A stretch of DNA of 64,000 nucleotides from [Eubacterium] cellulosolvens LD2006 (lineage in GTDB: Bacteria; Bacillota; Clostridia; Lachnospirales; Lachnospiraceae), in contig NZ_JHXY01000007.1 of NCBI RefSeq assembly GCF_000621585.1, positions 124,001 to 188,000 of the forward strand. Reading direction: 5' to 3'. The notes beneath the pieces were generated by a model. That model was not told where the DNA came from, made no database searches, and was given only the letters and a program-made list of their open reading frames with translations. Shown here piece by piece: positions 522 to 62,980 of the stretch (the first letter of the stretch is position 1; every line of letters starts with the position of its first letter). A program made the position numbers and the translations under genes.

Positions 522-632
522 GAATGCCGCTTGCGACATTCGGCGCCACGCGTATGCGAAGCATTTATGCATTGCGCAAGTGCGCATCCCGCGTCGCGGG
601 TTTATGTCACAGGATTTTCCTGTGACATAAAC
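522..632 (-). repeat. Interspersed 3'-end palindromic repeat, copy 1
   Basis: All modules of the repeat family are present. The outer palindrome is GAATGCCGC/GCGACATTC (522-541). The core at 571-599 includes GTGCGCATCCCGCG. The long stem is GTTTATGTCACAGGA (600-614) paired with its exact complement at 618-632, 15 bp with a 3-nt loop. It begins at the U-tract of the terminator that follows fba. Confidence 0.75.
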
Positions 633-657
633 AAAGGGCGCCCCTTTTGGACGCCCT
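632..657 (-). terminator. Intrinsic terminator of fba
   Basis: On the minus strand the stem AGGGCG...CGCCCT encloses a CCAAAAGG-containing loop and is followed by TTTGTTT. It lies about 70 nt after the aldolase stop codon and runs directly into the palindrome of repeat copy 1. Confidence 0.8.
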
Positions 658-728
658 GACTGTAAATCGCTCTTTTATTTCCGGAAAGACCAGACGTTTC
701 TCCGGAGCAAAAACAAGCTCTCTTCGGC

Positions 729-1592
729 TCAGGCTTTGTTAACAGAACCGAAAAGCTCCATTTTCTCTTTCACTTTCGCCTTGATTGCCTCTGTACCAGG
801 AGCAAGAAGTTTTCTCGGATCGAAGCCCTTGCCCTGCTGATCCTTTCCTGCCTCGATGTACTCACGAGTAGCCTCAGCGAATACGAGCTGGCACTCTGTG
901 TTTACGTTGATCTTGGATACGCCAAGGGAGATTGCCTTTGCGATCTGATCATCCGGGATACCTGTACCGCCGTGAAGAACGAGCGGCATATCGCCTGTTT
1001 TATCTTTGATAGCTGCAAGTGTATCGAAGGAAAGTCCTGCCCAGTTAGCCGGATAAACACCGTGGATGTTACCGATTCCTGCTGCGAGGAAGTCAACGCC
1101 GAGATCAGCAATCTTCTTGCACTCTTCCGGATCTGCGCACTCGCCGGCACCTACAACACCGTCTTCCTCACCACCGATGGAACCAACCTCAGCCTCGATG
1201 GAAAGACCAAGCTTATGAGCAACAGCTACGAGCTCTGTTGTCTTCGCGAAGTTCTCCTCGAACGGAAGGTGGGAACCGTCGAACATGATGGATGTGAAAC
1301 CTGCTTTGATGCAGTCATAGCATGCGTCGTACTCGCCGTGATCCAGGTGAAGAGCAACCGGAACCGTGATTCCAAGGCTCTCATCCATTGCTTTAACCAT
1401 TGCTGCAACTGTCTTGTAGCCTGTCATATACTTTCCGGCACCCATGGAGACACCGAGAATAACCGGAGAGTTAAGCTCCTGTGCTGTAAGAAGAACAGCT
1501 TTTGTCCACTCAAGGTTGTTGATGTTGAACTGTCCAACTGCGTAATGTCCAGCCTGTGCTTTCTGAAGCATTTCTGCTGCGTTAACTAACAT
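729..1592 (-). CDS. fba: Class II fructose-1,6-bisphosphate aldolase
   Basis: The 287-residue protein is a zinc-dependent class II aldolase that splits fructose-1,6-bisphosphate into dihydroxyacetone phosphate and glyceraldehyde-3-phosphate in glycolysis. The metal and substrate motifs are visible: HLDHG at residues 82-86, an EAEVGSIGGEEDG segment, NIHGVYP, LHGGTGIPDD and the phosphate-binding INVNTE near residue 230. The start ATG has an AGGAGG site seven bases upstream. The gene appears monocistronic, with a strong promoter at 1689-1718 and a terminator at 632-657. A tagatose-bisphosphate aldolase of the same family cannot be fully excluded, but length and motifs fit the glycolytic enzyme. 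Confidence 0.95.
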   Translation of the reverse strand: MLVNAAEMLQKAQAGHYAVGQFNINNLEWTKAVLLTAQELNSPVILGVSMGAGKYMTGYKTVAAMVKAMDESLGITVPVALHLDHGEYDACYDCIKAGFTSIMFDGSHLPFEENFAKTTELVAVAHKLGLSIEAEVGSIGGEEDGVVGAGECADPEECKKIADLGVDFLAAGIGNIHGVYPANWAGLSFDTLAAIKDKTGDMPLVLHGGTGIPDDQIAKAISLGVSKINVNTECQLVFAEATREYIEAGKDQQGKGFDPRKLLAPGTEAIKAKVKEKMELFGSVNKA

Positions 1593-1688
1593 TTGATTTT
1601 CCTCCTGTTTGGAACTGAAATGATACAGCTAAATATATACATAAAAGCCGACCCGTAAACTGTTAAAAAGTCTACGAAATCAGTTCTC

Positions 1689-1718
1689 ATTATATACTAT
1701 ATGCTCGTAGATTGGCAA
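1689..1718 (-). promoter_or_regulatory. Promoter of fba
   Basis: TTGCCA and TATAAT are separated by 18 nt on the minus strand. The -10 box is about 97 nt upstream of the aldolase start, leaving a leader of roughly 90 nt. Confidence 0.7.
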
Positions 1719-1728
1719 GTGTCAGATA

Positions 1729-2649
1729 TCAGTTGTTCGGAGACACGAGTTTTACGGGTTTTCTTCTGTTGAGGAAAAGCTGTAATTCTTTATGCCGGTT
1801 CTCAATCTCGACATAGGTGTGCGCGTCGCCGTACTCGCCGTCCAGCGTCCAGGCGATCTCCTCCGCGGACTCGATCGTCACCTTCTTCGCCTTGAACTTC
1901 TCGACAAGTGCTGTCGGTGCGCCGTTCAGAAGTGCCTGAATGATTTCGTTCACCTCGATCGGATTGGTCGGCGTGTGAACCAGCGTCACTTCAAAGAGAC
2001 CGTCGTTCATATCCACCGCCCTTCCGGTGATGTTTTTCATACCGCCCACCAGACGGCTGTTGGTGATCATGCCGTAGGCGTAATTGCCCTCGACCTTTCT
2101 TCCGTCTGCGTTTACCATGATGTGGTAGCTCGGTATATTGAAGAGCTGCTTGCCGGCCTCAAGCACGTATGCCAGATGACCGAGGTTATTCTTCAGGGTC
2201 TGATCCGTCTCGTAGGACACATTGGTGAACATACCGAAGGCAGCTACATATATAAAGTGTTTATCGTTAAAGGAGCCGACGTCGCACTGATAGATGTCTC
2301 CCACGACAATATCCTCCGCCGCCTCGACCATGTTCTTCGAGATGGCAAGGCTGTTTGCGAAGTCGTTCGTGCTTCCGGCAGGGATATAGCCGACAGCCAT
2401 ATTCGGAGAATATTTCATGACAGCATCGACAACCTCATCCATGGTGCCGTCGCCTCCGCTGCAGACCACCGTGTCCACCTCTCCGGCCATCCGCGCAATC
2501 GTCTCCCGCGCGTCTCCCGCCGCCTGGGTCGGATGAATCAGGACATCATATCCTCCCTTCGTCAGCACATCGACGATCTCGGCAAGATTCTGTTTGATCA
2601 GACCACGCCCCGAGCGCGGATTGTAAACAAATAAAAGCTTCTTTCCCAT
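1729..2649 (-). CDS. Diacylglycerol kinase family lipid kinase (YegS/BmrU type)
   Basis: The 306-residue protein belongs to the DAGK/sphingosine kinase-like family that phosphorylates lipid substrates at the inner face of the membrane. It shows the family nucleotide-binding landmarks NPRSG (residues 10-14), SGGDGTMDEV (64-73) and PAGSTNDFA (90-98), then the C-terminal beta-rich half with DGLFEV. In Firmicutes these proteins recycle diacylglycerol or act on related lipids; the exact substrate cannot be read from sequence. The start has an AAGGAG site nine bases upstream. The gene has its own promoter (2727-2755) after the rplQ terminator and reads toward fba without an obvious terminator between them. 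Confidence 0.88.
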   Translation of the reverse strand: MGKKLLFVYNPRSGRGLIKQNLAEIVDVLTKGGYDVLIHPTQAAGDARETIARMAGEVDTVVCSGGDGTMDEVVDAVMKYSPNMAVGYIPAGSTNDFANSLAISKNMVEAAEDIVVGDIYQCDVGSFNDKHFIYVAAFGMFTNVSYETDQTLKNNLGHLAYVLEAGKQLFNIPSYHIMVNADGRKVEGNYAYGMITNSRLVGGMKNITGRAVDMNDGLFEVTLVHTPTNPIEVNEIIQALLNGAPTALVEKFKAKKVTIESAEEIAWTLDGEYGDAHTYVEIENRHKELQLFLNRRKPVKLVSPNN

Positions 2650-2726
2650 ATATAATCTTTACTCCTTGTGAGTTCCCATTCGCTCCGGCATTCACTTTCG
2701 AAAAAAGCGCAACCAAAGCATATGTA

Positions 2727-2755
2727 ATGATACAGCTTTTTCCTGCAACTTGCAA
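2727..2755 (-). promoter_or_regulatory. Promoter of the lipid kinase gene
   Basis: TTGCAA and TATCAT are spaced 17 nt on the minus strand, just downstream of the rplQ terminator and about 78 nt upstream of the start codon. Confidence 0.6.
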
Positions 2756-2761
2756 ACAGAG

Positions 2762-2791
2762 AAAAAAAGAAGACTGCCGAAGCAGTCTTCT
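2762..2791 (-). terminator. Intrinsic terminator of the alpha operon
   Basis: A perfect 10-bp stem, AGAAGACTGC with its complement around the tetraloop TTCG, is followed by a run of Ts on the minus strand. It lies 24 nt after the rplQ stop codon. Confidence 0.92.
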
Positions 2792-2814
2792 CTATATGTG
2801 TGATCAAGCAGAAA

Positions 2815-3351
2815 TTATACAAGCTCGATAAGAACTTCCATAGCTGCGTCACCTTTTCTCTGTCCGATCTTAACGATACGTGTATAACCACCGTTACGGT
2901 TCGCGTACTTCGGTGCGATCTCGTCGAACATCTTGGCAACCATGTCAACTTTCTTTGTGTTTGCTTTTCTTCCCTTGTTCTCAGCCGGAACCTCAGTTAC
3001 CGGGTAGAAAACCTTGAGCATCTGACGACGAGCGTGCAGTCTGGACGGTTTGTCCTTCTTGATCTCTCTGTCCTGCTCTGTGTACTTGGTAACTTTCTTA
3101 CCGTCTACAACCTCTTTTACACGTTTGCCGTTTGCATCCTTCTCCGGAACTTTAACTTTAACAGTCTCCGTCTCGAAGTTGTCAGCCTCACGTACAGCGA
3201 GTGCGATCAGGCCCTCAGCGATCTTCTTGATCTCTTTCGCCTTTGTCTCTGTTGTACGGATGGATCCGTGATAGAGAAGGTTTGTAACCTGGTTTCTAAG
3301 TAATGCTTTTCTCTGGGAAGCTGTTCTTCCAAGCTTTCTGTATTTTGCCAT
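2815..3351 (-). CDS. rplQ: 50S ribosomal protein L17, with internal insertions
   Basis: L17 is a structural protein of the large ribosomal subunit and the last gene of the alpha operon. The start MAKYRKLGRT is preceded by GGAGG eight bases upstream; the five extra codons of the longer open frame are non-coding. The protein is 178 residues, about 50 longer than E. coli L17. The conserved N-terminal half and the GGYTRIVKIGQRKGD end are intact, and the extra length is two charged insertions at about residues 62-107 and 118-137. Such insertions are probably a lineage feature; their role is unknown. Confidence 0.96.
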   Translation of the reverse strand: MAKYRKLGRTASQRKALLRNQVTNLLYHGSIRTTETKAKEIKKIAEGLIALAVREADNFETETVKVKVPEKDANGKRVKEVVDGKKVTKYTEQDREIKKDKPSRLHARRQMLKVFYPVTEVPAENKGRKANTKKVDMVAKMFDEIAPKYANRNGGYTRIVKIGQRKGDAAMEVLIELV

Positions 3352-3537
3352 TTCTTTATCCTCCAATTGTGGAACGGACAGTCACGCATCTTCGGACTTA
3401 CTGACTGTTCGCTGTTTGTCCATAATCTGTTATGCTGCGGTCCGCTCGTAGGTCTTACGACCGCGGCGTTTGTAATCTGCGGCTGTCCGCAGAATAAATC
3501 TTGATCTGTTCGGGCTTATCACAAGCAGCAGCAAAAA

Positions 3538-4500
3538 TTACTGCTCCTCGCTCGGGCTTAAGGAAAGTCCAAGCTCGTTGAGTTTTGCAAGTACCTCTTC
3601 GAGGGATTTGCGACCAAGGTTCCTAACCTTCATCATATCCTCGGAAGTCTTGTTGCAGAGCTCTTCGACTGTATTGATACCTGCGCGTTTCAGGCAGTTA
3701 TAGGAACGAACGGAAAGCTCAAGCTCATCGATGTTCATCTCAAGAACTTTCTCTTTCTCGTCATCCTGATGCTCGATCATAACTTCTGCTGTCTTCGCGT
3801 TCTCAGAGAGATCGATGAACAGCTTCAGGTGCTCGCTCAGAACCTTTGCCGCAAGGCTGACTGCCTCATCCGGGCCAAGTGTTCTGTTGGTATATACATC
3901 AAGTGTCAGCTTGTCGAAATCTGTGATCTGGCCGACACGAGTATTCTCTACAGTCATATTTACGCGCTCAACCGGTGTGTAGATTGCATCAACCGCAATT
4001 ACGCCGATCGGCAGGTCTTCCGGTTTTCCCTTGTCAGCGCCTACATAGCCGCGTCCGTTGGTAATTGTCAGCTCCATATAAAGCTTACAGTCAGGACCAC
4101 CATTCAGATGCGCAATGATCTGATCCGGATTCATGATTTCGATATCCTGATCAACCTGAATATCAGAAGCGCGAACGATACCCTCTCCATCATACTCAAT
4201 GTATGCCACTTTCGGTTCGTCAGAGCTGCTGCTGTTCTTAATGGAAAGGTTTTTGAGATTCATGATGATCTCAGTTACATCCTCTTTTACTCCAGGGATG
4301 GAACTGAACTCATGAAGAACGCCCTCAATCTTTACCTGGCTGACTGCTGAACCCGGAAGTGAAGAAAGCATGATTCTTCTGAGAGAATTTCCGAGCGTGG
4401 TACCATAACCACGTTCCAGAGGCTCAACAACAAATCTGCCGAACTTCTTATCTTCTGAAATCTCGGTAATCTCAATTTTGGGTTTGTTAAAATCAAACAC
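3538..4500 (-). CDS. rpoA: RNA polymerase alpha subunit
   Basis: The alpha subunit dimerises to nucleate RNA polymerase assembly, and its C-terminal domain contacts UP elements and activators. At 320 residues it has the N-terminal domain motifs [14 protein letters not shown] and LSSLPG, and a helix-hairpin-helix alpha-CTD from about residue 255 ([15 protein letters not shown]). The start is taken as the GTG at 4500 (protein VFDFNKP), which lies nine bases after AAAGGAGG; the longer open frame upstream has no such support. The position between rpsD and rplQ is the classical alpha-operon order. Confidence 0.95.
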
Positions 4501-4593
4501 CTGCAAGTCCCTCCTTTTAGGATGCTCATCAAGTTGCAAAGCCGCATGGGCCACCCAGCGGTGAACCATGCAGTCAAAAAATTCAAACTATAA

Positions 4594-5187
4594 TTATTTG
4601 GAGTACAACTCGACGATAGACATGTCATCAACCGGAACGTCGATCATATCACGTGCAGGAACCTGCTTAACTGTTCCCTGCAGTGCGTCTGCGTTTACAT
4701 CCAGCCATGCCGGAACTACACGTCCTGCTGTTGCGTCAGCAACATCTTTCATTCTCTGTGTAGTCTTCTTGCTCTCTTTGATCTCGATTACGTCACCAGG
4801 TTTTACCTGATAGGACGGAATGTTTACAACTTTGCCGTTGACTGTAACGAACTTGTGGTCAACGATCTGTCTTGCCTCTTTTCTTGTTCTTGCGAATGCA
4901 AGACGGAAAATTACATTGTCCAGACGCATCTCAAGGAGTGCCATCAGGTTGTCACCTGTCTGTCCTTTCATGCGGTCTGCCTTTGCGTAATAGTTACGGA
5001 AAGGTTTCTCCAGAACTCCGTAAATGAATTTCGCTTTCTGTTTCTCGCGAAGCTGCATTCCGTACTCGGAAATTTTGCGGCGATTGTTTCTAAGCTGACG
5101 TCTGGATTTCTTGTCAATACCCAGATATGTAGGATCCAGTCCAAGGCTTCTGCATCTCTTAAGTACCGGTACTCTATCTACTGCCAT
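4594..5187 (-). CDS. rpsD: 30S ribosomal protein S4
   Basis: S4 is a primary 16S rRNA-binding protein that starts 30S assembly; in many bacteria it also represses its own operon. The 197-residue protein opens with an S4 N-terminal domain carrying a single cysteine, so it is the variant without a zinc knuckle, followed by the S4 RNA-binding domain from about residue 88 (RLDNVIFRLAFARTR). It lies between rpsK and rpoA. Confidence 0.97.
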   Translation of the reverse strand: MAVDRVPVLKRCRSLGLDPTYLGIDKKSRRQLRNNRRKISEYGMQLREKQKAKFIYGVLEKPFRNYYAKADRMKGQTGDNLMALLEMRLDNVIFRLAFARTRKEARQIVDHKFVTVNGKVVNIPSYQVKPGDVIEIKESKKTTQRMKDVADATAGRVVPAWLDVNADALQGTVKQVPARDMIDVPVDDMSIVELYSK

Positions 5188-5219
5188 TATCTATGACCTC
5201 CTGTTTAATATTTGTAAAA

Positions 5220-5612
5220 TCAGACTCTTCTGCGTTTTGGCGGACGGCAGCCGTTGTGCGGTACCGGTGTCACATCGCAGATGCTAGTTACTTCAAGTCC
5301 GGCTGCAGCCAGTGCACGGATCGCAGCCTCACGACCTGAACCAGGTCCTTTTACAAATACCTCAACGCTCTTTAAACCATGAACCAGAGCTGCCTTTGTT
5401 GCAGTCTCTGCTGCCATCTGTGCAGCGTAAGGAGTAGATTTTCTTGAACCTTTGAATCCAAGGCCACCGGCACTTGCCCAAGACAGTGCGTTACCCTCTG
5501 TATCAGTCAGAGTAACGATTGTGTTGTTGAAAGATGCCTGAATATGTGCCTGTCCACGTTCAACGTTTTTCTTTACACGACGTTTTGTCGTTTTCTTAGT
5601 AGCTTTTGGCAT
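5220..5612 (-). CDS. rpsK: 30S ribosomal protein S11
   Basis: S11 is a 130-residue protein of the 30S platform. It shows the basic N-terminus [15 protein letters not shown] and the conserved C-terminal end [16 protein letters not shown]. It sits between rpsM and rpsD in the alpha operon. Confidence 0.97.
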
Positions 5613-5654
5613 AATAAAAACTAACCTACCTTTTCCTTTAAATGTGCTTTGTCA

Positions 5655-6026: not shown

Positions 6027-6188
6027 GTGCGTTTTCCTCCTTTTGTTGCGATCGGTCTGAAAGTGCTGCTTTTTTCGCCGATCAATTTAATACCATCTTA
6101 AATGGGATGCAGGTATATGCATCCAGCCGCCAACATCTGTGTCGGCCTTTCCTCCCCTCTTTTTTTCGAATCCCGGGAAGGTTTTAAG

Positions 6189-6272
6189 TAATATTATAAG
6201 GGATCTCCGTTTGCGCGGATCTCCGCCGGAGGTTACCTGACGCAGCATGTCAGGTCTCACTTTATAATATTA
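6189..6272. repeat. Inverted-repeat-bounded element between rpmJ and rpsM
   Basis: TAATATTATAA (6189-6199) and its exact complement (6262-6272) bracket an 84-bp stretch. Inside are a direct repeat GGATCTCCG (6201-6209 and 6217-6225) and a perfect 7-bp hairpin ACCTGAC/GTCAGGT (6235-6255). It could be a folded mRNA spacer or a small inserted element; nothing in it codes. Confidence 0.5.
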
Positions 6273-6304
6273 GTTCGCATAAGCAGTGATGAGTTGTCTG
6301 ATTA

Positions 6305-6418: not shown

Positions 6419-6529
6419 GAGTATCCTCCTTTCCTGTAATGAAAAGCATAAGTAGATTGCAATGTATCCTGCGTCTGCAACGCTTCCGGGTGGGTTGATC
6501 CTCAGAAGACACGCAAAGATACAGCTATC

Positions 6530-6608: not shown

Positions 6609-6678
6609 CATCTGCGAGTTGCCCATCCCGGCGAAGCGTTTGTGTTATACGACTGCCGGAGGAAATTCCTGTAACACA
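6609..6678 (-). repeat. Interspersed 3'-end palindromic repeat, copy 2 (partly decayed stem)
   Basis: The core CATCTGCGAGTTGCCCATCC with GCGAAGCGTT (6609-6640) is clear. The stem keeps only TGTGTTA/TAACACA (6641-6647, 6672-6678); the right arm GGAAATTCCTGTAACACA is intact but the left arm has diverged. It abuts the infA terminator. Confidence 0.65.
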
Positions 6679-6706
6679 TAAAAGCAGGAGCCTTTCGGCT
6701 CCTGCG
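6679..6706 (-). terminator. Intrinsic terminator of the adk-map-infA unit
   Basis: The 9-bp perfect stem GCAGGAGCC/GGCTCCTGC with a 4-nt loop is followed by TTTT on the minus strand, starting eight bases after the infA stop codon. Confidence 0.88.
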
Positions 6707-6712
6707 CTGTTT

Positions 6713-8754: not shown

Positions 8755-8805
8755 GAACAAAGTCCGCAAGCGGACTTCATCTCCCCCCATCCCCTCACTC
8801 CTCCC

Positions 8806-9098
8806 GGTGAGGAATCCCGCGGAGCAGGGATATGACCTCGAACGATAGGAAACCGAGGACAGAAGCGCGAGCATAGCGGCGCCGTTGGAGGACTGTCTGA
8901 GCGCACGTAACGCATGAAGCCATTGTTGTCATCCGATCAGCGTGCGCGAGTTTTCCGGAAACGGCGTCAATAGGCGGCGCAGCGCTGACGACGAGGTGAC
9001 GCGTTCGCGGGCATATTTCTGCTCCGTGGACAATTCTCTCATCTGCGAGCTGTGCATCCCGCTGAGCAGGGATATGAAATATCAAAGAAATTTCATGA
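8806..9098 (-). repeat. Composite degenerate repeat region between secY and adk
   Basis: The gap 8637-9153 holds no credible gene. It contains two related copies of ATCCCGC-(G/T)-GAGCAGGGATATGA, at about 8813-8834 and 9057-9077. The second belongs to a degenerate copy of the 3'-end repeat: its core CATCTGCGAGCTGTGCATCC begins at 9040, with a weak stem TGAAAT/ATTTCA at 9075-9095. The GC-rich sequence between them (8835-9038) has further short inverted repeats but no recognised function. Confidence 0.5.
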
Positions 9099-9102
9099 CA
9101 CG

Positions 9103-9133
9103 AAAAAGAACGCATGTCGAAACACGCGTTCTC
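9103..9133 (-). terminator. Intrinsic terminator after secY
   Basis: The stem AGAACGC/GCGTTCT with a 12-nt loop is followed by TTTTTC on the minus strand, 21 nt after the secY stop. It marks the end of the S10-spc transcription unit. Confidence 0.75.
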
Positions 9134-19891: not shown

Positions 19892-20108
19892 AAAAAAAGT
19901 CGCCTCCTTTTCGTACTTTTGATAGCACGACGAGTGGTGACTGTACACATTTCCGTGTGTGTCCTGAAAACGCACACGTTGTTTCCACACAGTGGTGGAC
20001 CATTCAGTTGTACAGTGACGTTTCGCCTGTATCTTGACTAGACATTCGCTCCACGGAGTTACCAGCTCTTCGCTGCAATCTCTCGCTTCATAGCTTTCAT
20101 GTCACAAC
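19892..20108 (-). promoter_or_regulatory. S10 operon leader RNA (about 215 nt)
   Basis: Between the predicted transcription start near 20108 and rpsJ lies an untranslated leader with several potential stems, including CGTGTG/CACACG around 19952-19980. Leaders of this length on S10 operons are commonly sites of ribosomal-protein feedback; I cannot match this one to a described class. Confidence 0.45.
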
Positions 20109-20200: not shown

Positions 20201-20270
20201 ATGCGAGCTGCGCATCCCGCGGAGCGTTTTGTCTCATAGGGAATGCGAAGCAATTTCCTATGAGACAAAA
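20201..20270 (-). repeat. Interspersed 3'-end palindromic repeat, copy 3
   Basis: The core is GCGAGCTGCGCATCCCGC followed by GGAGCG (20203-20226). The stem TTTTGTCTCATAGG (20227-20240) pairs exactly with 20257-20270 (14 bp). The A/T end of the stem forms the U-tract of the terminator beside it. Confidence 0.78.
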
Positions 20271-20296
20271 AACGATCCGGTATTTCTACCGGATCG
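20267..20296 (-). terminator. Intrinsic terminator of the S26-like membrane protein gene
   Basis: The 10-bp perfect stem CGATCCGGTA with its complement and a GAAA loop is followed by six Ts on the minus strand, about 60 nt after the stop codon. Confidence 0.9.
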
Positions 20297-22596: not shown

Positions 22597-22679
22597 TTCG
22601 CTTCCCCTTCCCCCTGATAAATTATTACGTCCCGGCTTTTTGCTTCTGGAAACGCTTCGCATTTCCTGAGATCGAGCAG

Positions 22680-22767
22680 GATCGCGTCAGCGATCTACAC
22701 ATCTGCGAGCCAGGCATCCCGCGGAGCGTTGCGTCATGGAAATTCTGAAAGAATTTCCATGACGCAA
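22680..22767 (-). repeat. Interspersed 3'-end palindromic repeat, copy 4
   Basis: The outer palindrome is GATCGCGTCAGCGATC (22680-22695) and the core (22701-22730) includes ATCTGCGAGC and GGCATCCCGCGGAGCG. The stem TTGCGTCATGGAAATTC (22729-22745) pairs exactly with 22751-22767 (17 bp, 5-nt loop). It lies next to the ferredoxin terminator. Confidence 0.8.
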
Positions 22768-22792
22768 AAAACCGGCACCCGAAGGCGCCGGC
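22765..22792 (-). terminator. Intrinsic terminator of the ferredoxin gene
   Basis: CCGGCGCC/GGTGCCGG (one mismatch) with a TTCG loop is followed by six Ts on the minus strand, about 28 nt after the ferredoxin stop. Confidence 0.85.
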
Positions 22793-28032: not shown

Positions 28033-28115
28033 CCTGCCCGGATTCCGCGTACAGTTTCTGTTCCGTGAGTAACAGACGTTCTCGCACCGAGCCCGGGATG
28101 CGAAACATCTACCCA

Positions 28116-28186
28116 TCGCGCGAGTTGCGCATCCCGCGGAGCGTTTTGTGTTATAGAAATTTCGGAGGAATTTCCTATAACACAAA
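28116..28186 (-). repeat. Interspersed 3'-end palindromic repeat, copy 5
   Basis: The core is GCGCGAGTTGCGCATCCCGC followed by GGAGCG (28118-28143). The stem TTTGTGTTATAG (28145-28156) pairs exactly with 28175-28186 and continues, after one bulge, with AAATT/AATTT. It lies beside the ssb terminator. Confidence 0.8.
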
Positions 28187-28222
28187 GAGAGGGGCTGCGC
28201 AATTCTATATGCGACAACCCCT
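28184..28222 (-). terminator. Probable terminator of ssb
   Basis: AGGGGTTGTCGC and GCGCAGCCCCT form an imperfect GC-rich stem on the minus strand, followed by TCTTTGTGTT. The U-tract is weak. Confidence 0.6.
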
Positions 28223-28245
28223 CCTGTACGGATCCTGTTAATCAA

Positions 28246-39040: not shown

Positions 39041-39084
39041 GATTTTGCCGCTCGGTTCACACACCATCGGAATGTCTGTAAAAA

Positions 39085-39209
39085 AGAATGTCGCTAGCGA
39101 CATTCTCGCGCCGAGCGCGGATGCAACGCATCTACATATCGCGCGAGTGCGCATGTAAGCGGAGCGTTTTATGTTATAGAAATTTCGGAGAAATTTCTAT
39201 AACATAAAA
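39085..39209 (-). repeat. Interspersed 3'-end palindromic repeat, copy 6 (longest stem)
   Basis: All modules are present: outer palindrome AGAATGTCGC/GCGACATTCT (39085-39106, followed on the minus strand by a T-run), core GCGCGAGTGCGCATGTAAGC followed by GGAGCG (39141-39166), and a perfect 20-bp stem TTTTATGTTATAGAAATTTC (39167-39186) with its complement at 39190-39209. Confidence 0.82.
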
Positions 39210-39250
39210 AACACAGCCCCGCCGTCCGGACACTGCCGGACAGCGGGGCT
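39203..39250 (-). terminator. Intrinsic terminator of the exported flavin reductase gene
   Basis: AGCCCCGC pairs with GCGGGGCT, with an inner TCCGG/CCGGA helix, followed by TGTGTTTTTT on the minus strand. Confidence 0.88.
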
Positions 39251-39303
39251 GCCAGTTTACATTCTAAGATATTCGTTTCTTGTAAAGGAATGCTGAATCC
39301 CTC

Positions 39304-41285: not shown

Positions 41286-41320
41286 GTGTTATGGAAATTC
41301 CGAATGAATTTCCATAACAC
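41286..41320 (-). repeat. Interspersed 3'-end palindromic repeat, stem-only copy 7
   Basis: Only the palindrome is present: GTGTTATGGAAATTC (41286-41300) pairs exactly with 41306-41320 (15 bp, 5-nt loop). It starts 13 nt downstream of the rnfB stop and is preceded by CGTTTTC on the minus strand; no core or separate terminator stem is seen. Confidence 0.75.
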
Positions 41321-55751: not shown

Positions 55752-55913
55752 TGTTTTTAGTAAATTATATGTGCATTATACACAAGTGGTTTCGCGATCC
55801 TTTCAATTTTGTTATGCATTTGGCCGTAGGTATTTGTTCTGCATTTTATATTTATCGTCAAAATTACCCGAAAAAATAAACTTTTAAAATACCTGACCGA
55901 AGGCGCAGGAGAA

Positions 55914-56045
55914 GAATCGCGCCAGCGATCTTCTCATCTGCGAGTTGCGCATGAAGCGGAGCGTTTTTTGTGTGACAACAAGCCAAAAAATGCGTCGTTT
56001 CAAGCAAGCTTGATGCCGCATTCCCGGCTCGCTGCCACACAAAAA
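55914..56045 (-). repeat. Interspersed 3'-end palindromic repeat, copy 8 (with a longer loop)
   Basis: The outer palindrome ATCGCGCCAGCGAT (55914-55927) and the core CATCTGCGAGTTGCGCATGA with AGCGGAGCG (55935-55963) are clear. The stem TTTTTGTGTG (55965-55974) pairs with CACACAAAAA (56036-56045), but the interior is expanded to about 60 nt. It abuts the GH48 terminator. Confidence 0.7.
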
Positions 56046-56072
56046 CGGGCACCGTATTTCTACGGTGCCCGT
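56039..56072 (-). terminator. Intrinsic terminator of the GH48 gene
   Basis: A perfect 12-bp stem ACGGGCACCGTA with its complement and a GAAA loop is followed by TTTTTGTG on the minus strand, 38 nt after the stop codon. Confidence 0.92.
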
Positions 56073-56110: not shown

Positions 56111-59100
56111 TTATTTTTTGATGCTGTCGAAGTAAGCAACAGCTGCCTGATTGTATTTGAATACGGATTTAGCCATATCCTTCGTCTGCCTATCACCTTT
56201 GTTAGCTTTAAGTACAGAGCTGCTCCAGGAAAGTCCGGATGCAGTTACCTGGCAGTAAGCTGTTCCGTCTGCAACCTTGAATGTATGGTTCTTTCCAAGA
56301 TCCTGAGCTTTTACGCCTACAAGATCAAGGTAAGCATAGCTGCCTTCAATTGTTGCTTTTACTTTCTTGTTGTCGATGTAGTATGTGTAACCAGCTGCCT
56401 CATCCGGATCAACCCTGAATGCAACAGTAAGTGTTGTATCGGAAACGATGCTAAGACTTACTGAATAGGAAACATCCATTGTTCCGATCGATGTAGCTGC
56501 ATACTCCTCAACGTCGGAGTAATCAACGTCAGTAAGCTTATCCTTCGGAACGAGATCCCACTCTTTGTAACGAAGAAGTCTCTGAGCATAGATACCGTAA
56601 TCCTTGATCTGGGATGCAAGAAGTTTCAGCTCAGCAGAGTATGCCTTGTTGCTTGAATAAGTATCACAAACCTTTGCAACTGTGTACTGGTATGTCGGAA
56701 GTGCTACGCCGTCATCATCGTACAGTTTTGCACGACGTCCGTCAGAAAGGTATACCTTGAAGTCAATCTTGCTGTTTGTCTCTTTTGCTTTGCAGTTAAT
56801 CGGAACTACATAGACTGTTCTGCCCTTGCTCCAAGGCATCGTCTCGCAATCAGAGAACATTACTTTTGTCTCAACACCGTTAAGTGTGAAGATACCGTAT
56901 GCGTTTCCATCCTCTTTTACTGCCTCCGGAAGATCAACGTATACTACTGTACCGATCTTACCTTTGAGCTCGAGGTTACGTCCAACGACTTTAACAACCT
57001 CAGGGATGAATGTCGGAGCCGGCTCGTCTGTCGGTTCCGGTTTTACTGTAGGTGTAGGTTTCTTTGTAGGTGTAGGTGTAGCGTCCTCAACATCTCCGAA
57101 GAGCTGATCGTAAACACCCATAGCGATAGCTACATCGCAGTTAGCCCAGAAACGATGGTAAACGATTGTGGACTCTTTGCCATTCTCAGCATCTACCAGC
57201 TTCTGGTAGTCCGGATCATCCTTGTACTGGGAACGGATGGAAAGGAATGTAGAGTCGTGGTTGATCGGATCGCCAAGGGCTGTCTCTCCGCCGTCAAGCT
57301 CCTCCGGAATATCAATTCTGGACTTGAACCACTTATCTGCTGTCTCTTTGTCGATTACGGTAGGATCACCGATACCCTCGCCGTCTGTGTGCATCTCCCA
57401 AACTTTGTCGAGAAGCTCATCAGCGATTGCTCTGTAGTATTCGTAATCATGTCCGTCACCGTCTGTAGCATCATCAAGTTTCAGACCTGCTGCGTAGTAA
57501 GCAAGTGTGTTTGCCATAGAACCTGTAACACCGGCGTCATGGTTCCAAGCAACAACATCTACATGAAGGTCGCTGTTATCGGAAGAATGAGTCTTGCTGT
57601 TCCATGTTCCAGGCTGTCCGGACCAGTCAAGTGTTCCAGGCATCCATGTATCTGTGAGGTTGCCCTTCTTATCTCTCTGAAGCTGAGATGTAGCCCAGTT
57701 AGCCCACTTGTCCATAAGAGCCTTAGCCTGCTCATTGCCTGTCTCGTAGTAGAGTTCGGCAATACGCTGCATAGACCATGTCTGCATACCGAACCACTGG
57801 TTGGAATCCGGGTTGTGGTAAACAGGAGCCTCTGTGTATGCAAGTCCGTTGAATGTGGATACATTCTTCGGAGCCGGTGAGTAGTCACCGTTGTAGTTGT
57901 TGGAAGCACCACCGGCTACACCACCCTCTTCGGACTGCAGCCATGTGTAGAAGTCAAGCTGTGTATCGTAGGACTTATCCCAGTCTTCCTGAGCTGTTGC
58001 GGATCCCGGTACGAAGCTTGTGAATCCTGTGTTGTCACGGGAAAGAATCCAAGCAGCCAGCGGGTTCTGGTATCCGAAATGAGCGTGGGAAGAACCGATT
58101 CTCCAGCTCCAGCCATCATCCATTCCGCCGCCCCATGCGTAGTACCAGTTAAGCAGGTAATCGCAGGAGTCTTTCTTTGTTCCGTTAACTTTTCCGTTTC
58201 CGATCTTTCTGAAGTACTTATCGTACATGGAGTAACGGAGGAAGTCACCGAGTTTTGTTGTCTTAGAAATTGCAGAGGAGCTTACTTTGCCCTTTCCGTC
58301 AGCCTGAGACCACTTAACAGCATCGTAAACAGCCTGTACTACACGGGCATCAGCATCGGATGCTACTGTGTACTTCCACTGTTTGGAAGGTTTGTTGGCC
58401 TCTTTTGTGAAGTAGCTAAGGTAACCAGCGTTCGGAAGTCCACCCTTTGTGAAGTCCTCCTCAGAAGGCTGCGGGATAGTATTGAAACATCCCTCCATAC
58501 ATCCACGCTGATAAGTGTTGATGAATACCGGCTCACTTCCATCGCCGAAGCCGTAGAAGTTATCGCAGTCGATGAGCCAGTGCATACCGTAAACATTGGA
58601 ATCACCGTACTCTTTTACGAGCTCTTTGTAGATCGGGTCTTTTCCGGCTGTTCCGGAAAGTTCTGCCGGATACTGATCCGGTGTATCGTACTCGTTTGCC
58701 GGAGTAGCCGGGCTGTTCGGGTTGTACTTAGCATTTCCCTCTGTGGACTGATGTGTCTCATCCGGGATGAAGTATTTGTCAATGATCTTCCATGCTGTAT
58801 CTACACCTTTGTAGTTGCCGGTGTAGTATCCGTTCATAGCCTCGAGCCATACATAGTAGGAAGCTGCCTCAGATGTGGACTCATGTCCCTGATCCGGAGC
58901 CTCTGCCATAAGTGTCTCTACAGAGTGGTAAGGAACTCCGTGTTTGTCGAAGTATGTGAGATCACCGTTGTGCATATCGTTGTACAGCTGTTTGAATCTC
59001 TTTGCATACTTGGAATTCGGGTTCTTTGTGAAATCCTTTACGTTTGCACGGGATGTCTGATCCTTCTCGGATGCAGCCGGTGTAGGTGTAGCATCCGGAT

Positions 59101-59644
59101 TTGTTGTGATGGATTTGCCAACAGACCATGTGTCATCGCCGTTGTCCTGAACTTTTCCTGTAGCCCAGTCAGACGGATCGAAGTTGAATGTACCTGCCTG
59201 GATCACGAAATCTCCAGATACATTCGGATCTCCGCTCTTCAGCTCGATTGCACCGGCTGCGTCATCACTGCTGTCGTAGATCTTAACAGATGCATGATCC
59301 TGGATTGTGATGTCCTTGTTGATCTGGATGCTGTATCCGTTCAGGTCAACCTCAACGCTTGTGCCGTACCACATATTGATCGAATCGATCGAAATGTTGG
59401 CCATAAGTTTTACTTTGTTCTTAGCTGTGCCAGACTGGTCTCCACAGAATGGCTTCCAGACTGCGCCGTTGTCTGTGATGTTTTTGCCGTTAGCAACGAT
59501 CAGAGTCTCTGCTCCAACGACATCCTCGTCTGCTACAGATGCCTTCGGACCGCTAGTCTTAGCATCAGCTGCCATAGCAGGTGCTGCTGTTGTAGCGATC
59601 ATCGCCATCGAAAGCAGGCAAGCAAGAAACGCTTTCCTTTTCAT
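56111..59644 (-). CDS. Secreted multidomain GH48 cellulase (processive cellobiohydrolase family)
   Basis: The 1177-residue protein has a signal peptide (cleavage after about AMA, 25), an N-terminal beta-helix-like domain (about 40-177, VEVDLNGYSIQINKDITIQD), a short TPTP linker, and a GH48 catalytic domain (about 205-860). Diagnostic GH48 segments are GVPYHSVETLMAEAP, GHESTSEAASYYVWLEAMNG, PNSPATPANEYD, VYGMHWLIDCDNFYGFGDG and WSWRIGSSHAHFGYQNP. Glu259 (TSEA) probably corresponds to the catalytic acid of characterised GH48 enzymes. A PT-rich linker (about 872-905) leads to two further domains ending FKYNQAAVAYFDSIKK. No dockerin is seen. It has a long leader and no glycosidase neighbours. Confidence 0.93.
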   Translation of the reverse strand: MKRKAFLACLLSMAMIATTAAPAMAADAKTSGPKASVADEDVVGAETLIVANGKNITDNGAVWKPFCGDQSGTAKNKVKLMANISIDSINMWYGTSVEVDLNGYSIQINKDITIQDHASVKIYDSSDDAAGAIELKSGDPNVSGDFVIQAGTFNFDPSDWATGKVQDNGDDTWSVGKSITTNPDATPTPAASEKDQTSRANVKDFTKNPNSKYAKRFKQLYNDMHNGDLTYFDKHGVPYHSVETLMAEAPDQGHESTSEAASYYVWLEAMNGYYTGNYKGVDTAWKIIDKYFIPDETHQSTEGNAKYNPNSPATPANEYDTPDQYPAELSGTAGKDPIYKELVKEYGDSNVYGMHWLIDCDNFYGFGDGSEPVFINTYQRGCMEGCFNTIPQPSEEDFTKGGLPNAGYLSYFTKEANKPSKQWKYTVASDADARVVQAVYDAVKWSQADGKGKVSSSAISKTTKLGDFLRYSMYDKYFRKIGNGKVNGTKKDSCDYLLNWYYAWGGGMDDGWSWRIGSSHAHFGYQNPLAAWILSRDNTGFTSFVPGSATAQEDWDKSYDTQLDFYTWLQSEEGGVAGGASNNYNGDYSPAPKNVSTFNGLAYTEAPVYHNPDSNQWFGMQTWSMQRIAELYYETGNEQAKALMDKWANWATSQLQRDKKGNLTDTWMPGTLDWSGQPGTWNSKTHSSDNSDLHVDVVAWNHDAGVTGSMANTLAYYAAGLKLDDATDGDGHDYEYYRAIADELLDKVWEMHTDGEGIGDPTVIDKETADKWFKSRIDIPEELDGGETALGDPINHDSTFLSIRSQYKDDPDYQKLVDAENGKESTIVYHRFWANCDVAIAMGVYDQLFGDVEDATPTPTKKPTPTVKPEPTDEPAPTFIPEVVKVVGRNLELKGKIGTVVYVDLPEAVKEDGNAYGIFTLNGVETKVMFSDCETMPWSKGRTVYVVPINCKAKETNSKIDFKVYLSDGRRAKLYDDDGVALPTYQYTVAKVCDTYSSNKAYSAELKLLASQIKDYGIYAQRLLRYKEWDLVPKDKLTDVDYSDVEEYAATSIGTMDVSYSVSLSIVSDTTLTVAFRVDPDEAAGYTYYIDNKKVKATIEGSYAYLDLVGVKAQDLGKNHTFKVADGTAYCQVTASGLSWSSSVLKANKGDRQTKDMAKSVFKYNQAAVAYFDSIKK

Positions 59645-59817
59645 TTCTCGAAATTCCTCCTCATACTTTAATGATAAAACATGTGTATTTCATTAACGTT
59701 CATCCCGAATCCGGATCGCGTCCGTCTCTTTCGATCCGTCCTTTAGCAATTCAGGCCTGTCAAGGTTGCCCTCCCGATCCTGACCTGTCACCCGGGTTCC
59801 AAGATCAACGTTCATGA

Positions 59818-59866
59818 CAAAATAAATAAAAATCGGAAAAAACGTCCCCAATCTGCGTTTTTTCCT
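59818..59866 (-). terminator. Terminator-like hairpin inside the GH48 leader
   Basis: On the minus strand GGAAAAAACG and CGTTTTTTCC form a perfect 10-bp stem with an 11-nt loop, followed by GATTTTTATTTATTTTG. It lies midway between the predicted GH48 transcription start (about 60025) and the start codon (59644), so it could attenuate the gene; alternatively it ends a separate short RNA. Confidence 0.55.
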
Positions 59867-60031
59867 TTTACACCCCGGAAAGCTCCGGCCGGCTCTTTGC
59901 ACCACTCTGCACAAAAAGCCTTCGAATATTCGTTGCGATTAATGCAATATTCTCATCTACCACCGTTTTAGCGAAGAATAATTGGAAAAGATGCCTAATT
60001 ACCCCTCCCTAAATCGATTTCGGCTATATTC

Positions 60032-60060
60032 AATATACTATCACAGAATATAAATGTCAA
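60032..60060 (-). promoter_or_regulatory. Promoter of the GH48 gene
   Basis: Consensus TTGACA and TATATT are spaced exactly 17 nt on the minus strand. The implied 5' leader is about 380 nt and contains the terminator-like hairpin at 59818-59866. The surrounding region (59900-60780) is markedly A/T-rich. Confidence 0.8.
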
Positions 60061-60282
60061 ACTTCTCAAAACTTGTCGTTCGTTATGTCTGACGAAACAT
60101 TTTTCGAAAATTATTTGTACTGGCTTCTCCCAGTGTTTGCAAATATTATGTTATATTTTATACACAAATCCAACAATTATACAACGAATCCAATGTTTGT
60201 TTACATAAAACTGTTCTCGAAAACAAGTAAAATTTCGCCAAGGAATCAATTGTTCCACAGAATCGGTCTTCATTTTCGTCAT

Positions 60283-60304
60283 TTTCACAGTAAAGCCTGT
60301 GAAA
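60283..60304. repeat. Palindrome upstream of the GH48 promoter
   Basis: TTTCACAG (60283-60290) and CTGTGAAA (60297-60304) form a perfect 8-bp dyad with a 6-nt spacer, about 220 bp upstream of the GH48 promoter. It could be an operator; no regulator is assigned. Confidence 0.4.
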
Positions 60305-60376
60305 CAAAGGGTAACTTTCGTTTGAGTTTCGTAAACATGCAGGTTCATTGGAATCTCATAGAAATAACCTTCACGG

Positions 60377-60419
60377 CAAAAAAAACGGGCTGTTTCGCTT
60401 TCTCGTCACGAAACAGCCC
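60377..60419 (-). terminator. Strong terminator of the small transcription unit
   Basis: A perfect 11-bp stem GGGCTGTTTCG with its complement is followed by eight Ts on the minus strand. It lies one base after the stop of the 43-codon frame and has no annotated gene upstream other than that unit. Confidence 0.9.
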
Positions 60420-60420
60420 T

Positions 60421-60552
60421 TCAGGTATATTCTGTTAGTTTCACTTTATAACCTCCTTCTCTTTTCTTTTTATATAAACAAGATCCTTCTTCTACTTCTG
60501 GTTCTCTTAGAAGTGTGTACTTCTGTTCTTTCCTCTCCTTTTTTGAATTCAT
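60421..60552 (-). CDS. Candidate 43-residue small protein (or non-coding RNA)
   Basis: Between a consensus promoter (60652-60680) and the terminator at 60377-60419 lies a frame beginning MNSKKERKEQKYTLLREPEV and ending REGGYKVKLTEYT. It is strongly charged (Lys, Arg, Glu) with one Cys and matches nothing I recognise. Its own ATG has only a weak purine-rich site, whereas AGAAGGAGG precedes an in-frame GTG at 60444 that would give a 7-residue peptide (VKLTEYT, read as Met first). The transcript, about 270 nt and purine-rich, could equally be a regulatory RNA. What the sequence really supports is the transcription unit; the coding call is tentative. Confidence 0.35.
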   Translation of the reverse strand: MNSKKERKEQKYTLLREPEVEEGSCLYKKKREGGYKVKLTEYT

Positions 60553-60651
60553 TCTCTTTCGAAAGTTTTGAGCTTCAGAAAGTTTTCTCTTCTTAAAGAA
60601 GCGCGTCCTATGATTTCTGAAGTACGAAAAGGATTTCTTGTTGTTATTTCA

Positions 60652-60680
60652 TTTATATCATATCTTTTGGTTTCTGTCAA
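60652..60680 (-). promoter_or_regulatory. Promoter of the small transcription unit
   Basis: TTGACA and TATAAA are spaced exactly 17 nt on the minus strand. The nearest downstream gene, GH48, is separated from it by a strong terminator, so the promoter serves a transcript of about 270 nt. Confidence 0.75.
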
Positions 60681-60814
60681 TTGTTATTTGTATATTTGTC
60701 GTCTTGTCCCTAATTTTCAGAATATTTTGCAGTGTACTCTCAAAAATGCACAGTTCCGAGCAGCATCGGTGCAAAAGCAGTCTTCGACATGGCTAAAGTG
60801 AGGGGATGGGCGCG

Positions 60815-60836
60815 AGAATGTCGCGAGCGACATTCT
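60815..60836. repeat. Isolated outer palindrome of the repeat family
   Basis: AGAATGTCGC and GCGACATTCT separated by two bases are the same 22-bp palindrome as at 39085-39106, here six bases from the CbiT-like stop codon and without core or long stem. The flanking GCGCGAGAATGTCGC is also shared with that copy, in the opposite orientation. Confidence 0.6.
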
Positions 60837-60842
60837 TTTATC

Positions 60843-61757
60843 TCATCTTTTCCGCCCGGCTCTTCCGGTTATGATCCAGGGAGCCGGCTCCTGCGTGAAA
60901 AGATTCTTGTGCCCCAGCTTCGAGACGGAGATCTGGATCACCTCTTTGTCACGGATTCCGAGCGGTTCGAAGACCTTGTCGATATTTGCGGCCACACCGA
61001 TATCCAGCGTATAGATGACAACGCTGAGATTCGGGTTCAGTCTGGTCAGAAGATCCAGCTCCTGTTCCATGCTGGCGGACGCCACCAGCATGACTTTGTC
61101 CGGAACCGGAACGTTCTTCATCGCTTCCTCGTTCACCTGATCGATCACCTGAATGTTGTGAAGACCGAAGTGATCAATATTATCCTCCATGGTACTGCGG
61201 TCATCCGCACTGTACTCGACAGCCGTGACGGAGCCCGCCGTCGCAATCATTGCCGATTCCACCGCTATACTCTCGCCGCTGATTACCAGGACAGCATCGT
61301 GCGCCTCCACCTGCATCTTATTCAGGATGACAGAGCGGATCTCGCTGCCGACATAGTGAACAGAACCTCTGCGGAACAGATCATTGTCCATGCCGATTTT
61401 ATAGGTATTCCGCGCGTTTTTGTTGAGAACAAGCATGCCGGCGGACGCATTGATCCCCCTGTCAATCATGTTGGAGAGAAGGTCGTGTTTCACCTCTCCA
61501 ACCGGCTCGGAACCATCATTGTACCAGACCTCGCACTCGCCGAGACCGGCGTTCCACATGCGGTAAAAAATATCTTCGTCGCCCGCCGCCGTAAATACCA
61601 GAGTCGCCCGATGGGTCTCGACCGTCGGAATAACGCTCTTGCCCTTGCGTGTAATATCCAGCAGCTTCACTCTCTCCAGATCAAACGGTGCACTCTTCGC
61701 AAAGTACTGCAGCCAGGAAATAATGCTTTCATTATTAAACAACGATTCTTCGCTCAT
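60843..61757 (-). CDS. CbiT-like methyltransferase-fold protein with degenerate SAM motif
   Basis: The 304-residue protein has an uncharacterised N-terminal half and a C-terminal half resembling precorrin-6Y/cobalt-precorrin methyltransferase CbiT: VGSEIRSVILNKMQVEAHDA (about 140-159), AVEYSADDRSTMEDNIDHFG, then VPVPDKVMLVASASMEQELD. Where CbiT has a glycine-rich SAM loop (GxGxG), this protein has VISGESIAVESAMI, so methyl transfer is doubtful. The ATG at 61757 lies nine bases after AAGGGGG. No other cobalamin genes are near. It may be a regulatory or substrate-binding relative. Its promoter overlaps the LysR terminator. Confidence 0.65.
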   Translation of the reverse strand: MSEESLFNNESIISWLQYFAKSAPFDLERVKLLDITRKGKSVIPTVETHRATLVFTAAGDEDIFYRMWNAGLGECEVWYNDGSEPVGEVKHDLLSNMIDRGINASAGMLVLNKNARNTYKIGMDNDLFRRGSVHYVGSEIRSVILNKMQVEAHDAVLVISGESIAVESAMIATAGSVTAVEYSADDRSTMEDNIDHFGLHNIQVIDQVNEEAMKNVPVPDKVMLVASASMEQELDLLTRLNPNLSVVIYTLDIGVAANIDKVFEPLGIRDKEVIQISVSKLGHKNLFTQEPAPWIITGRAGRKR

Positions 61758-61865
61758 GTCGCTCATCCCCCTTGTGAGTTTTCTCCGCCCAGGACAGGCA
61801 GAAAGCAGGAAATATGTGTAAACCGACCATAACCCGCGCATTTGCGGAACTATTTTTATGCATAA

Positions 61866-61894
61866 ATTATATCATATAAAAAAGATCCTGTCGA
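61866..61894 (-). promoter_or_regulatory. Promoter of the CbiT-like gene
   Basis: TCGACA and TATAAT are spaced 17 nt on the minus strand; the -35 box lies in the downstream arm of the LysR terminator stem. Confidence 0.65.
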
Positions 61895-61925
61895 ACCGGA
61901 TACGATTCAGACAAGACCTTTTTCG
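61876..61925 (-). terminator. Intrinsic terminator of the LysR gene
   Basis: AAAGGTCTTGTC and GACAGGATCTTT form a 12-bp stem with two G-U type pairs on the minus strand, followed by TTTTTTATA, just after the LysR stop. Confidence 0.75.
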
Positions 61926-61940
61926 CTGTTTCTTTTGCAC

Positions 61941-62825
61941 TTATGTGTTGAAAATATTTGAATACTCTTTGATGACATGCTGGTAGAGGGTTCGCACGGC
62001 CGGCGCCATGAACGCAGGGTTCAGACAGGCAAGACCGATCTCGCGATAGGCCGGCGGATCCATATGGTACTGTTTGACATCGTAGGGGATGTCCCGCATG
62101 ACCAGCTCCGGCATGATACAGATTCCGAAACCGCTGGCCACCATGATGATCGTGGAGAGATCGTCCACAACATGATAACTTGTCTGAATGTCCAGCGAAT
62201 TGCTTCTCAGATAATTCTGAATATCCGCGTCGGTGGACTCACGCTGTACCACAAAATGCTGATCCTTCATCTCCTCGATCGTTATTTTTTCCTTCGACTC
62301 GTCCTTCTCAAAATCCGTCGGCGTGATGCAGAGAAGCGGATCCCGATAGAAGGTCTCGATCGGAAGGTCACCGGCACTTGAGACAGAGAGGAAGCCGAAA
62401 TCAACAATTCCATTCTTGATCCAGTATCGGACATCGTCATAGGTCCCCTCGAAAACCTCAATCTTGATTGCGGGGTACATCTCCTCAAACGACTTGATCA
62501 TGCCCGGAATCCAGGTCGTACACGCACTGGAAAAACAGCCGACTTTGACAGTTCCGGTCTTCAGCCCCTTGTACTCGGCCACAACCTGCTGCAGGCTCTC
62601 ATCGCTGTTCAGAACCGCATTGACATACGGGAGAATATGTTCGCCATAGTTTGTCAGCGCAACGCCGGACTTGTTTCTGGTGAGCACGGCAAACCCCAGT
62701 TCCTTCTCCATCGCAGAGATGGCATGACTGATCGCCGATGGTGTGAGACCGAGAACATCCGCCGCCTTATGAAAGCTACCCATCTCGGCTACTGTTTTGA
62801 ATACCTGGTAGGTGAGTAAAGTCAT
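61941..62825 (-). CDS. LysR family transcriptional regulator
   Basis: The 294-residue protein has an N-terminal winged helix-turn-helix (MTLLTYQVFKTVAEMGSFHK, then AADVLGLTPSAISHAISAME, residues 1-60) and a LysR effector domain (about 90-290) starting KTGTVKVGCFSSACTTWIPG. The start at 62825 follows AAAGGAG; the 12-codon extension is not supported. It lies between PFOR and the CbiT-like gene, each with its own signals. Effector and targets are unknown; regulation of a neighbour is a guess. Confidence 0.92.
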   Translation of the reverse strand: MTLLTYQVFKTVAEMGSFHKAADVLGLTPSAISHAISAMEKELGFAVLTRNKSGVALTNYGEHILPYVNAVLNSDESLQQVVAEYKGLKTGTVKVGCFSSACTTWIPGMIKSFEEMYPAIKIEVFEGTYDDVRYWIKNGIVDFGFLSVSSAGDLPIETFYRDPLLCITPTDFEKDESKEKITIEEMKDQHFVVQRESTDADIQNYLRSNSLDIQTSYHVVDDLSTIIMVASGFGICIMPELVMRDIPYDVKQYHMDPPAYREIGLACLNPAFMAPAVRTLYQHVIKEYSNIFNT

Positions 62826-62919
62826 ATCTGCTCCTTTCCCATTACACAATTTCATCCGCAAAAGGACGACTTAAGCGCTCGAACAGAGTCGAGTCTATGA
62901 TCCGTTTCTATCGTTTTAT

Positions 62920-62980
62920 TCTGCGAGCCTGTATCTAAGCGGAACGTGTGAGATCACAGGACTTTCGCGTGACATCACAA
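62920..62980 (-). repeat. Interspersed 3'-end palindromic repeat, degenerate copy 9
   Basis: The core has worn to CTGCGAGCCTGTATCTAAGC followed by GGAACG (62921-62946), and the stem TGTGAGATCAC (62947-62957) pairs imperfectly with GTGACATCACA (62969-62979). Position and order relative to the PFOR terminator are as in the good copies. Confidence 0.5.

Follow-up and report, generated by a model that had tools for sequence, protein, structure and literature searches.

What are the short palindromic repeats that recur behind genes in one stretch of the [Eubacterium] cellulosolvens LD2006 genome, and how did they come to lie there? The stretch (contig NZ_JHXY01000007.1, positions 124,001 to 188,000, 64,000 nucleotides, hereafter the window) had been interpreted in a sequence-only reading as carrying either a mobile element similar to miniature inverted-repeat transposable elements (MITEs) or repetitive extragenic palindromes (REPs), or an RNA element at 3' ends. 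The window copies are members of a dispersed non-coding element, which, given its patchiness in the genus, empty sites in a sister species, and tandem copies, is or recently was mobile. On balance, it is probably a short non-autonomous mobile family that inserts 3' of the T-tracts of intrinsic terminators in fixed orientation and would be moved in trans via a single strand. This reading builds on the observed dispersal, target, orientation bias, patchy distribution, and empty sites, as well as on the preserved pairing of a first palindrome (S1) and, more weakly, of a later hairpin (P2).

Across the whole genome holding the window (G000, 3.33 Mb), the 18-nt core of the element is matched at 107 sites when ≤2 mismatches are allowed, 61 of them forward and 46 reverse, and its reversed pattern, used as a control, is matched at none. 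The 20-nt core of the sequence-only reading gives 4 window matches at ≤3 mismatches, whereas 100 shuffles average 0.01. A BLAST search started from four full copies (E ≤ 0.01) reports 26 groups of pieces, some of them weak, across 184 kb around the window, i.e., approximately one per 7 kb, and the earlier estimate of one per 6 kb holds if degenerate pieces are counted. None of the copies read carries a gene. Loci L039, L058, and L084-L088 were excluded before site collection, and 125 of 129 sites had sufficient flank.

The position of the copies is highly regular. Of the 86 copies whose left end was recognised, 79 show at least 5 T within the 9 nt before the copy (control, 102 of 1720) and 62 are preceded by a terminator-like hairpin (control, 131 of 1720), where only left ends of the listed forms were taken and other left ends are unrepresented. 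Given a strong T-tract, a hairpin is present at 49 of 64 copies vs 131 of 551 intergenic T-tracts in the 184 kb, the latter being a crude count that includes tracts adjoining copies. Since a minority of copies lack the hairpin, the T-tract may be the minimal need. As for orientation, 71 of 79 copies trail the 3' end of a gene in the gene's own direction and 8 are opposite (genes called by codon usage), with no upstream gene called at 5 further of the 84 sites; these 84 retain the coding match L099(-) and probably a second one, L137, and L029 is scored as opposite despite a tRNA gene and terminator preceding it in its own direction. The uniform orientation claimed earlier is therefore a strong rule (71 of 84) with exceptions. 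The gene downstream of a copy has the same direction in 57 cases, the other direction in 17, and is not called in 10; tRNA genes are also found among the genes preceding copies. The element probably inserts just 3' of intrinsic-terminator T-tracts in fixed orientation, with a genome-wide bias that is strong, not perfect.

After the T-tract the element consists of palindrome S1, an A-run, the core, and two hairpins, P2 followed by P3 with a T-tract of its own, which agrees with the order of terminator, palindrome, core, and outer palindrome described previously. Full-length copies of type A measure 169 bp and those of type B 127 bp, with one variant of 124 bp. Examples of S1 are TCTCATAGG..CCTATGAGA and GTTATAGG..CCTATAAC, and the core consensus is CGCTCCGCGGGATGCGCA, or CGCTCCGC(G/A)GGATGCGCA with its variable position. 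A second core form, CGCTCCGC(T/A)TAGATGCGCA, represents another subfamily and is often the downstream member of a pair (L112, L115, L035, L147, and L138). S1 forms and tails are mixed in several combinations, and in head-to-tail tandems the second copy can start at the end of the first (core spacing 127-168 bp). In some copies a longer palindromic domain (GTGTGGCAACGAGCCA...) replaces S1, and it is also found alone (window 55970-56040, L028, and the sister-species site of window copy 22680), so that the 5' domain looks exchangeable. The 3' end is reached in 86 of the 111 sites of G000 and the sister-species genome G012 (61 type A and 25 type B), the other 25 being shorter or diverged; among the 111 are L118, where the sequence passes into N, and the coding match L099(-).

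The arms of S1 covary strongly and those of P2 more weakly. In S1 columns 2-7, 87.7% of cells pair over 68 distinct arm pairs, whereas 1000 shuffles of the 3' arms average 60.3% and never exceed 67.2%; the arms were picked for best pairing, which raises the paired fraction, the shuffles re-deal those same picked arms, and the 68 include two seemingly spurious pairs (L147 with 3 pairs and L162 with 7). For P2, 94.4% of cells pair (20 sequences), and paired fraction, covariation score, and number of cells changed on both sides each exceed all 500 shuffles. By eye, the core start varies in matched fashion across genera (CGC-TCC-GCG, CCC-TCC-GGG, and GCC-TCC-GGC).

All the pieces reported earlier (nine copies, a tenth consisting of the stem only, an isolated outer palindrome, and a fragment of the core) are present in the window, where they take the following form:

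521-656, minus strand: copy 1, type B-like; terminator T1 629-656, S1 601-631, core 581-598, P2 543-586, P3 521-542.
6609-6705, minus strand: copy 2, 3' truncated or diverged; T1 6680-6705, S1 6641-6678, core and tail start 6609-6638.
8755-9131, minus strand: composite; T1 9102-9131, S1 9069-9101, core 9040-9068, second core fragment and type A end 8755-8834.
20202-20295, minus strand: 3' truncated copy; T1 20267-20295, S1 20231-20266, core and GCTCGCA 20202-20226.
22673-22792, minus strand: copy; T1 22766-22792, S1 22731-22765, core 22700-22730, P2 22673-22710.
28075-28223, minus strand: type B-like copy; T1 28184-28223, S1 28148-28183, core 28126-28143, P2 28084-28130.
39079-39251, minus strand: full type B copy; T1 39206-39251, S1 39171-39205, core variant 39148-39166, P2 39108-39152, P3 and T-tract 39079-39107.
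41286-41320, strand unassigned: lone S1-like palindrome of uncertain membership.
55903-56071, minus strand: copy with long S1; T1 56041-56071, S1 55970-56040, core variant 55946-55963, P2 55903-55950.
60809-60839, plus strand by its flanks: lone type B P3 piece; outer palindrome 60815-60836, 96.8% identical to a type B copy over 31 nt.
62920-63001, minus strand: copy with diverged core, missed by the four-copy BLAST; T1 62978-63001, S1 62949-62977, core 62920-62946.

Two of these entries differ from their first description. The core fragment at 8813-8834 is part of a longer composite (8755-9101), and the palindrome at 60815-60836, which alone cannot decide its strand, is placed by flanks and BLAST opposite to the others. 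The Rfam scan of the window also gives two ribosomal protein leaders, S10-Clostridia (20020-20099, minus strand) and S4-Clostridia (6097-6151, minus strand); the 20202 copy lies ~100 nt upstream of the former.

Only 2 of 16 genus genomes contain the element, namely, G000 (98 sites at ≤1 mismatch) and G012 (59), which are syntenic with 75-97% identity over aligned blocks. According to their alignments, judged by eye, G012 has the clean empty sites that the sequence-only reading had suggested looking for, at the copies at 9040 and 20202, both without duplication. The element is also absent from G012 at 6609, 28075, and one syntenic site outside the window. At the 522 site G012 bears a different, A-like element at the same terminator, and at the 39085 site a type A copy stands behind the terminator that has type B in the window; one site outside the window likewise has elements of different subtype in both species at the same terminator, and another has a B-like element in both, much diverged. 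G012 has another long palindrome without core at the 22680 site and an unrelated hairpin at the 41286 site, and window sites 55903, 60809, and 62920 have no syntenic counterpart there. In addition, G012 has copies of its own, e.g., behind a tRNA terminator. The empty sites, the differing subtypes, and these separate copies indicate that sites turn over quickly and that some terminators are hit repeatedly or converted.

Beyond the genus, an exact 24-letter pattern finds 49 stretches in the genome collection, most of them from the assembly of G012. Other carriers are Butyrivibrio INlla16, WCD3002, and RGIG8012, Kandleria vitulina (which we take to lie outside Lachnospiraceae), RUI455, RGIG4909, a reindeer metagenome-assembled genome (MAG), a rumen co-assembly MAG, bin.48, and Lapin-026. 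Model matches at E ≤ 0.001 number 1 in Kandleria, 3 in INlla16, 8 in WCD3002, 3 in Lapin-026, 10 in RGIG8012, 41 in RUI455, and 3 in RGIG4909. With stricter filters, a covariance model matches 80 of 397 family genomes (79 of 334 genera) at E ≤ 1e-4 and, in a phylum draw, 0 of 278 genomes besides the window's own; as ≤13 candidates were scored per family genome, copy numbers there are lower bounds. The layout of collection matches was read in 28 of 54 loci. Two Methylobacterium matches to the 24-letter pattern lack the element layout and were taken as chance, and none of five viral contigs with an 18-nt core match shows the layout by eye. One type A copy searched against a phage collection and one reindeer MAG copy searched against a plasmid collection gave no match. 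This distribution suggests an old resident of one bacterial family, Lachnospiraceae, with bursts, losses, and some horizontal transfer. The two outcomes named earlier as speaking against such a family, sequences found only here or random place and orientation, were both looked for, and neither was found.

How might such an element move? An enzyme acting in trans would read folded single-stranded DNA in the manner of IS200/IS605 insertion sequences (IS), and its target would be a terminator hairpin with its T-tract. The A-run after S1 would face the T-tract, and the need of the moving strand to fold would keep S1 and P2 paired. The single-strand mechanism is preferred because the order of the repeat (T-tract, S1, A-run, and folded core) resembles that of an IS200-like Y1 element resident in the same genomes. 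Moreover, the element's 3' end is a hairpin and T-tract, like its target, which would explain the head-to-tail copies. As for the Y1 element, long matches are present in G000 (3) and G012 (1, besides two remnants of the left end measuring 47-58 bp) and in no other of the 16 genus genomes, with matches of 30-38 bp only in G008 and G011. Its six left ends in G000 and G012 sit, by eye, after T-tracts behind hairpins. Y1 relatives in other genera are likewise found directly behind hairpin and T-tract terminators; the loci of the element and its relatives are L208, L209, L204, L251, L255, L257, and L260-L271. In IS608 a guide sequence provides the comparison for a stretch facing the T-tract, and the A-rich stretch before the left hairpin of the Y1 element could, by analogy, face the T-tract like that guide.

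Several points weigh against this proposal. The single-strand step of transposition would itself be taken over by analogy. No helper gene was found beside the copies, either in the Y1 loci or among the open reading frames adjoining copies of different genomes; among frames common to copy flanks no mobile-element frame stood out, and the largest cluster touched 5 of the groups compared. Over the 397 family genomes, 47 of 80 carriers have Y1 (PF01797), as do 172 of the 317 others (p 0.53), and 9 of 28 high-copy genomes show no Y1. For P2, double changes occur in only 2 of 10 pairs, a count not above chance (330 of 500 shuffles), which makes its support partial. Finally, turnover may in part be conversion and not insertion, since several syntenic sites hold elements in both species. 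Searches for Y1_Tnp and RVT_1 over the genus and the 397 family genomes, and for IS200-like tnpA over the family, gave no consistent helper, and neither did the Y1 regions of G012 read one by one. Neither Y1 nor reverse transcriptase genes clearly follow the distribution of the repeat; the helper may have been lost, may escape draft assemblies, or may belong to another class.

The last option leads to a second reading, which we hold as a tentative possibility: a family-wide mobile class that homes to terminators, carries a terminator-like 3' end of its own, and uses an enzyme outside the Y1 and reverse-transcriptase families. It is considered because five of the 28 high-copy genomes show neither gene (G205, G216, G251, G297, and G396).

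Comparison with known systems places the element near two of them. Passages of PMC2817692 describe REPs and bacterial interspersed mosaic elements (BIMEs) as short palindromic intergenic repeats of high copy number, taken as non-autonomous and moved by an IS200/IS605-type enzyme, and IS200/IS605 elements as having no terminal inverted repeats and no larger target duplications. The present repeat resembles REP/BIME with RAYT, a Y1 enzyme, in being short, palindromic, intergenic, and abundant. However, it is longer (127-169 bp), directional, equipped with a core, P2, and P3, and placed behind terminators, and its conserved core lacks the GT(A/G)G head of REPs. The Y1 loci read contain one true copy (L209; core ≤4 mismatches) and no inverted copy pair flanking a rayt gene, although drafts may hide such a locus. 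The correlation of enzyme and repeat also failed, PF01797 standing for Y1 in general and covering RAYTs only as such. With IS200/IS605 elements and their gene-less derivatives it shares hairpins near the ends, the lack of target duplication, as seen at two empty sites, insertion directed to the 3' side of a short target (the T-tract), and the very T-tracts used by the IS200-like elements of the family. In contrast, it has no IS200 end hairpins and is not tracked by Y1 over the 397 genomes, and the IS ends read, all from IS elements found here, do not resemble core, P2, or P3. These are the nearest kinds, and membership in either fails on the features tested.

The earlier suggestion of a MITE- or REP-like mobile element thus stands as far as mobility is concerned, on genome-wide dispersal, empty sites, and patchy species distribution. 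It is not the usual MITE, because no terminal inverted repeat is seen by eye, nor is it shown to be a REP, because no linked RAYT-like gene was found. A DDE-type MITE was rejected, as the ends of full copies are not mutual inverted repeats and the two empty sites show no duplication. ERIC, RUP, BOX, and RU elements are other small bacterial repeats that are short, non-coding, dispersed, and structured; terminator targeting and its own core set the present element apart from them, the sequence comparison being made through Rfam only. Rfam 15 gave no match to the element in the window and 8 loci, with only a chance-like hit to mir-4679 (26.9 vs a gathering score of 88). As for the literature, the 16-letter core string was not found in the paper texts searched, nor was a description of the element. 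PMC8040213 reports palindromic candidate RNAs, 230 of 250 of them predicted as terminators, without naming Lachnospiraceae in its main text, and an unnamed entry for the element within that set is possible.

Could the element instead spread through RNA? In SINE-like retrotransposition (after short interspersed nuclear elements), a reverse transcriptase, e.g., that of a group II intron, would copy a transcript where a terminator T-tract is nicked. The target loops of group IIC introns are often terminators. PMC10190682 states that these introns insert beside a DNA stem-loop. The RNA-like structured anatomy, the T-tract target, and the 25 of 111 copies that are shorter or diverged 3' are in line with this route, as is the presence of reverse transcriptase in 53 of 80 carriers vs 168 of 317 others (p 0.043, uncorrected). 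We nevertheless consider it unlikely: RVT_1 is found in 19 of 28 high-copy genomes vs 202 of 369 others (p 0.24), 9 high-copy genomes have none, and in the genus it occurs in 7 of 16 genomes, unlinked to the repeat. The repeat is also far too short for a group IIC intron, and no group II intron, ribozyme, or other Rfam match was found in the loci scanned.

An equally improbable account is the RNA element at 3' ends of the sequence-only reading, i.e., a functional element acting in transcript end processing, read-through control, or as a small RNA, and spread by selection or recombination and not transposition. Covariation in S1 and P2 would be compatible with a role as RNA, and place and orientation are nearly constant. 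The type A 3' part (e.g., L002) also has, by eye, two exclusive pairings, in which either AAAGTCC upstream joins GGACTTT or the P3 hairpin forms locally, in an attenuator-like manner, and L239 has the same two pairings in other letters. However, target choice explains the place better, because the terminator of the gene itself precedes the copies, and 14 of 16 genus genomes lack them; they are missing from syntenic sister-species sites as well, and the genes that precede them, tRNA genes included, are unrelated.

That the resident IS200-like Y1 element directly helps the repeat in the genus is very doubtful: among the 16 genus genomes its full-length-type match is confined to the two repeat carriers, it uses the same target, its left tip GTGTCACAG resembles some S1 tips, and the IS200 subgroup is found in 9 of 28 high-copy genomes vs 67 of 369 others (p 0.08), but its hairpin CCACCTGCTCTGCAGGTGG is missing from the repeat, 19 of 28 high-copy genomes lack the subgroup, all carriers differ little from the rest (20 of 80 vs 56 of 317, p 0.15; drafts may miss IS copies), and an S1 tip, GTCACAGG, is shared by G297, a genome in which no Y1 was found.

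For a non-autonomous family of the favoured kind, terminators are abundant and nearly harmless landing sites. Targeting them in one orientation while rebuilding the target at its own end would explain how the element reached >100 copies in a gene-dense genome. Its helper enzyme would tell whether single-stranded terminator hairpins are general transposition targets, as suggested by the IS200 elements that share its hosts, and through its mobility the element itself would supply new 3' ends to a major family of gut and rumen bacteria.

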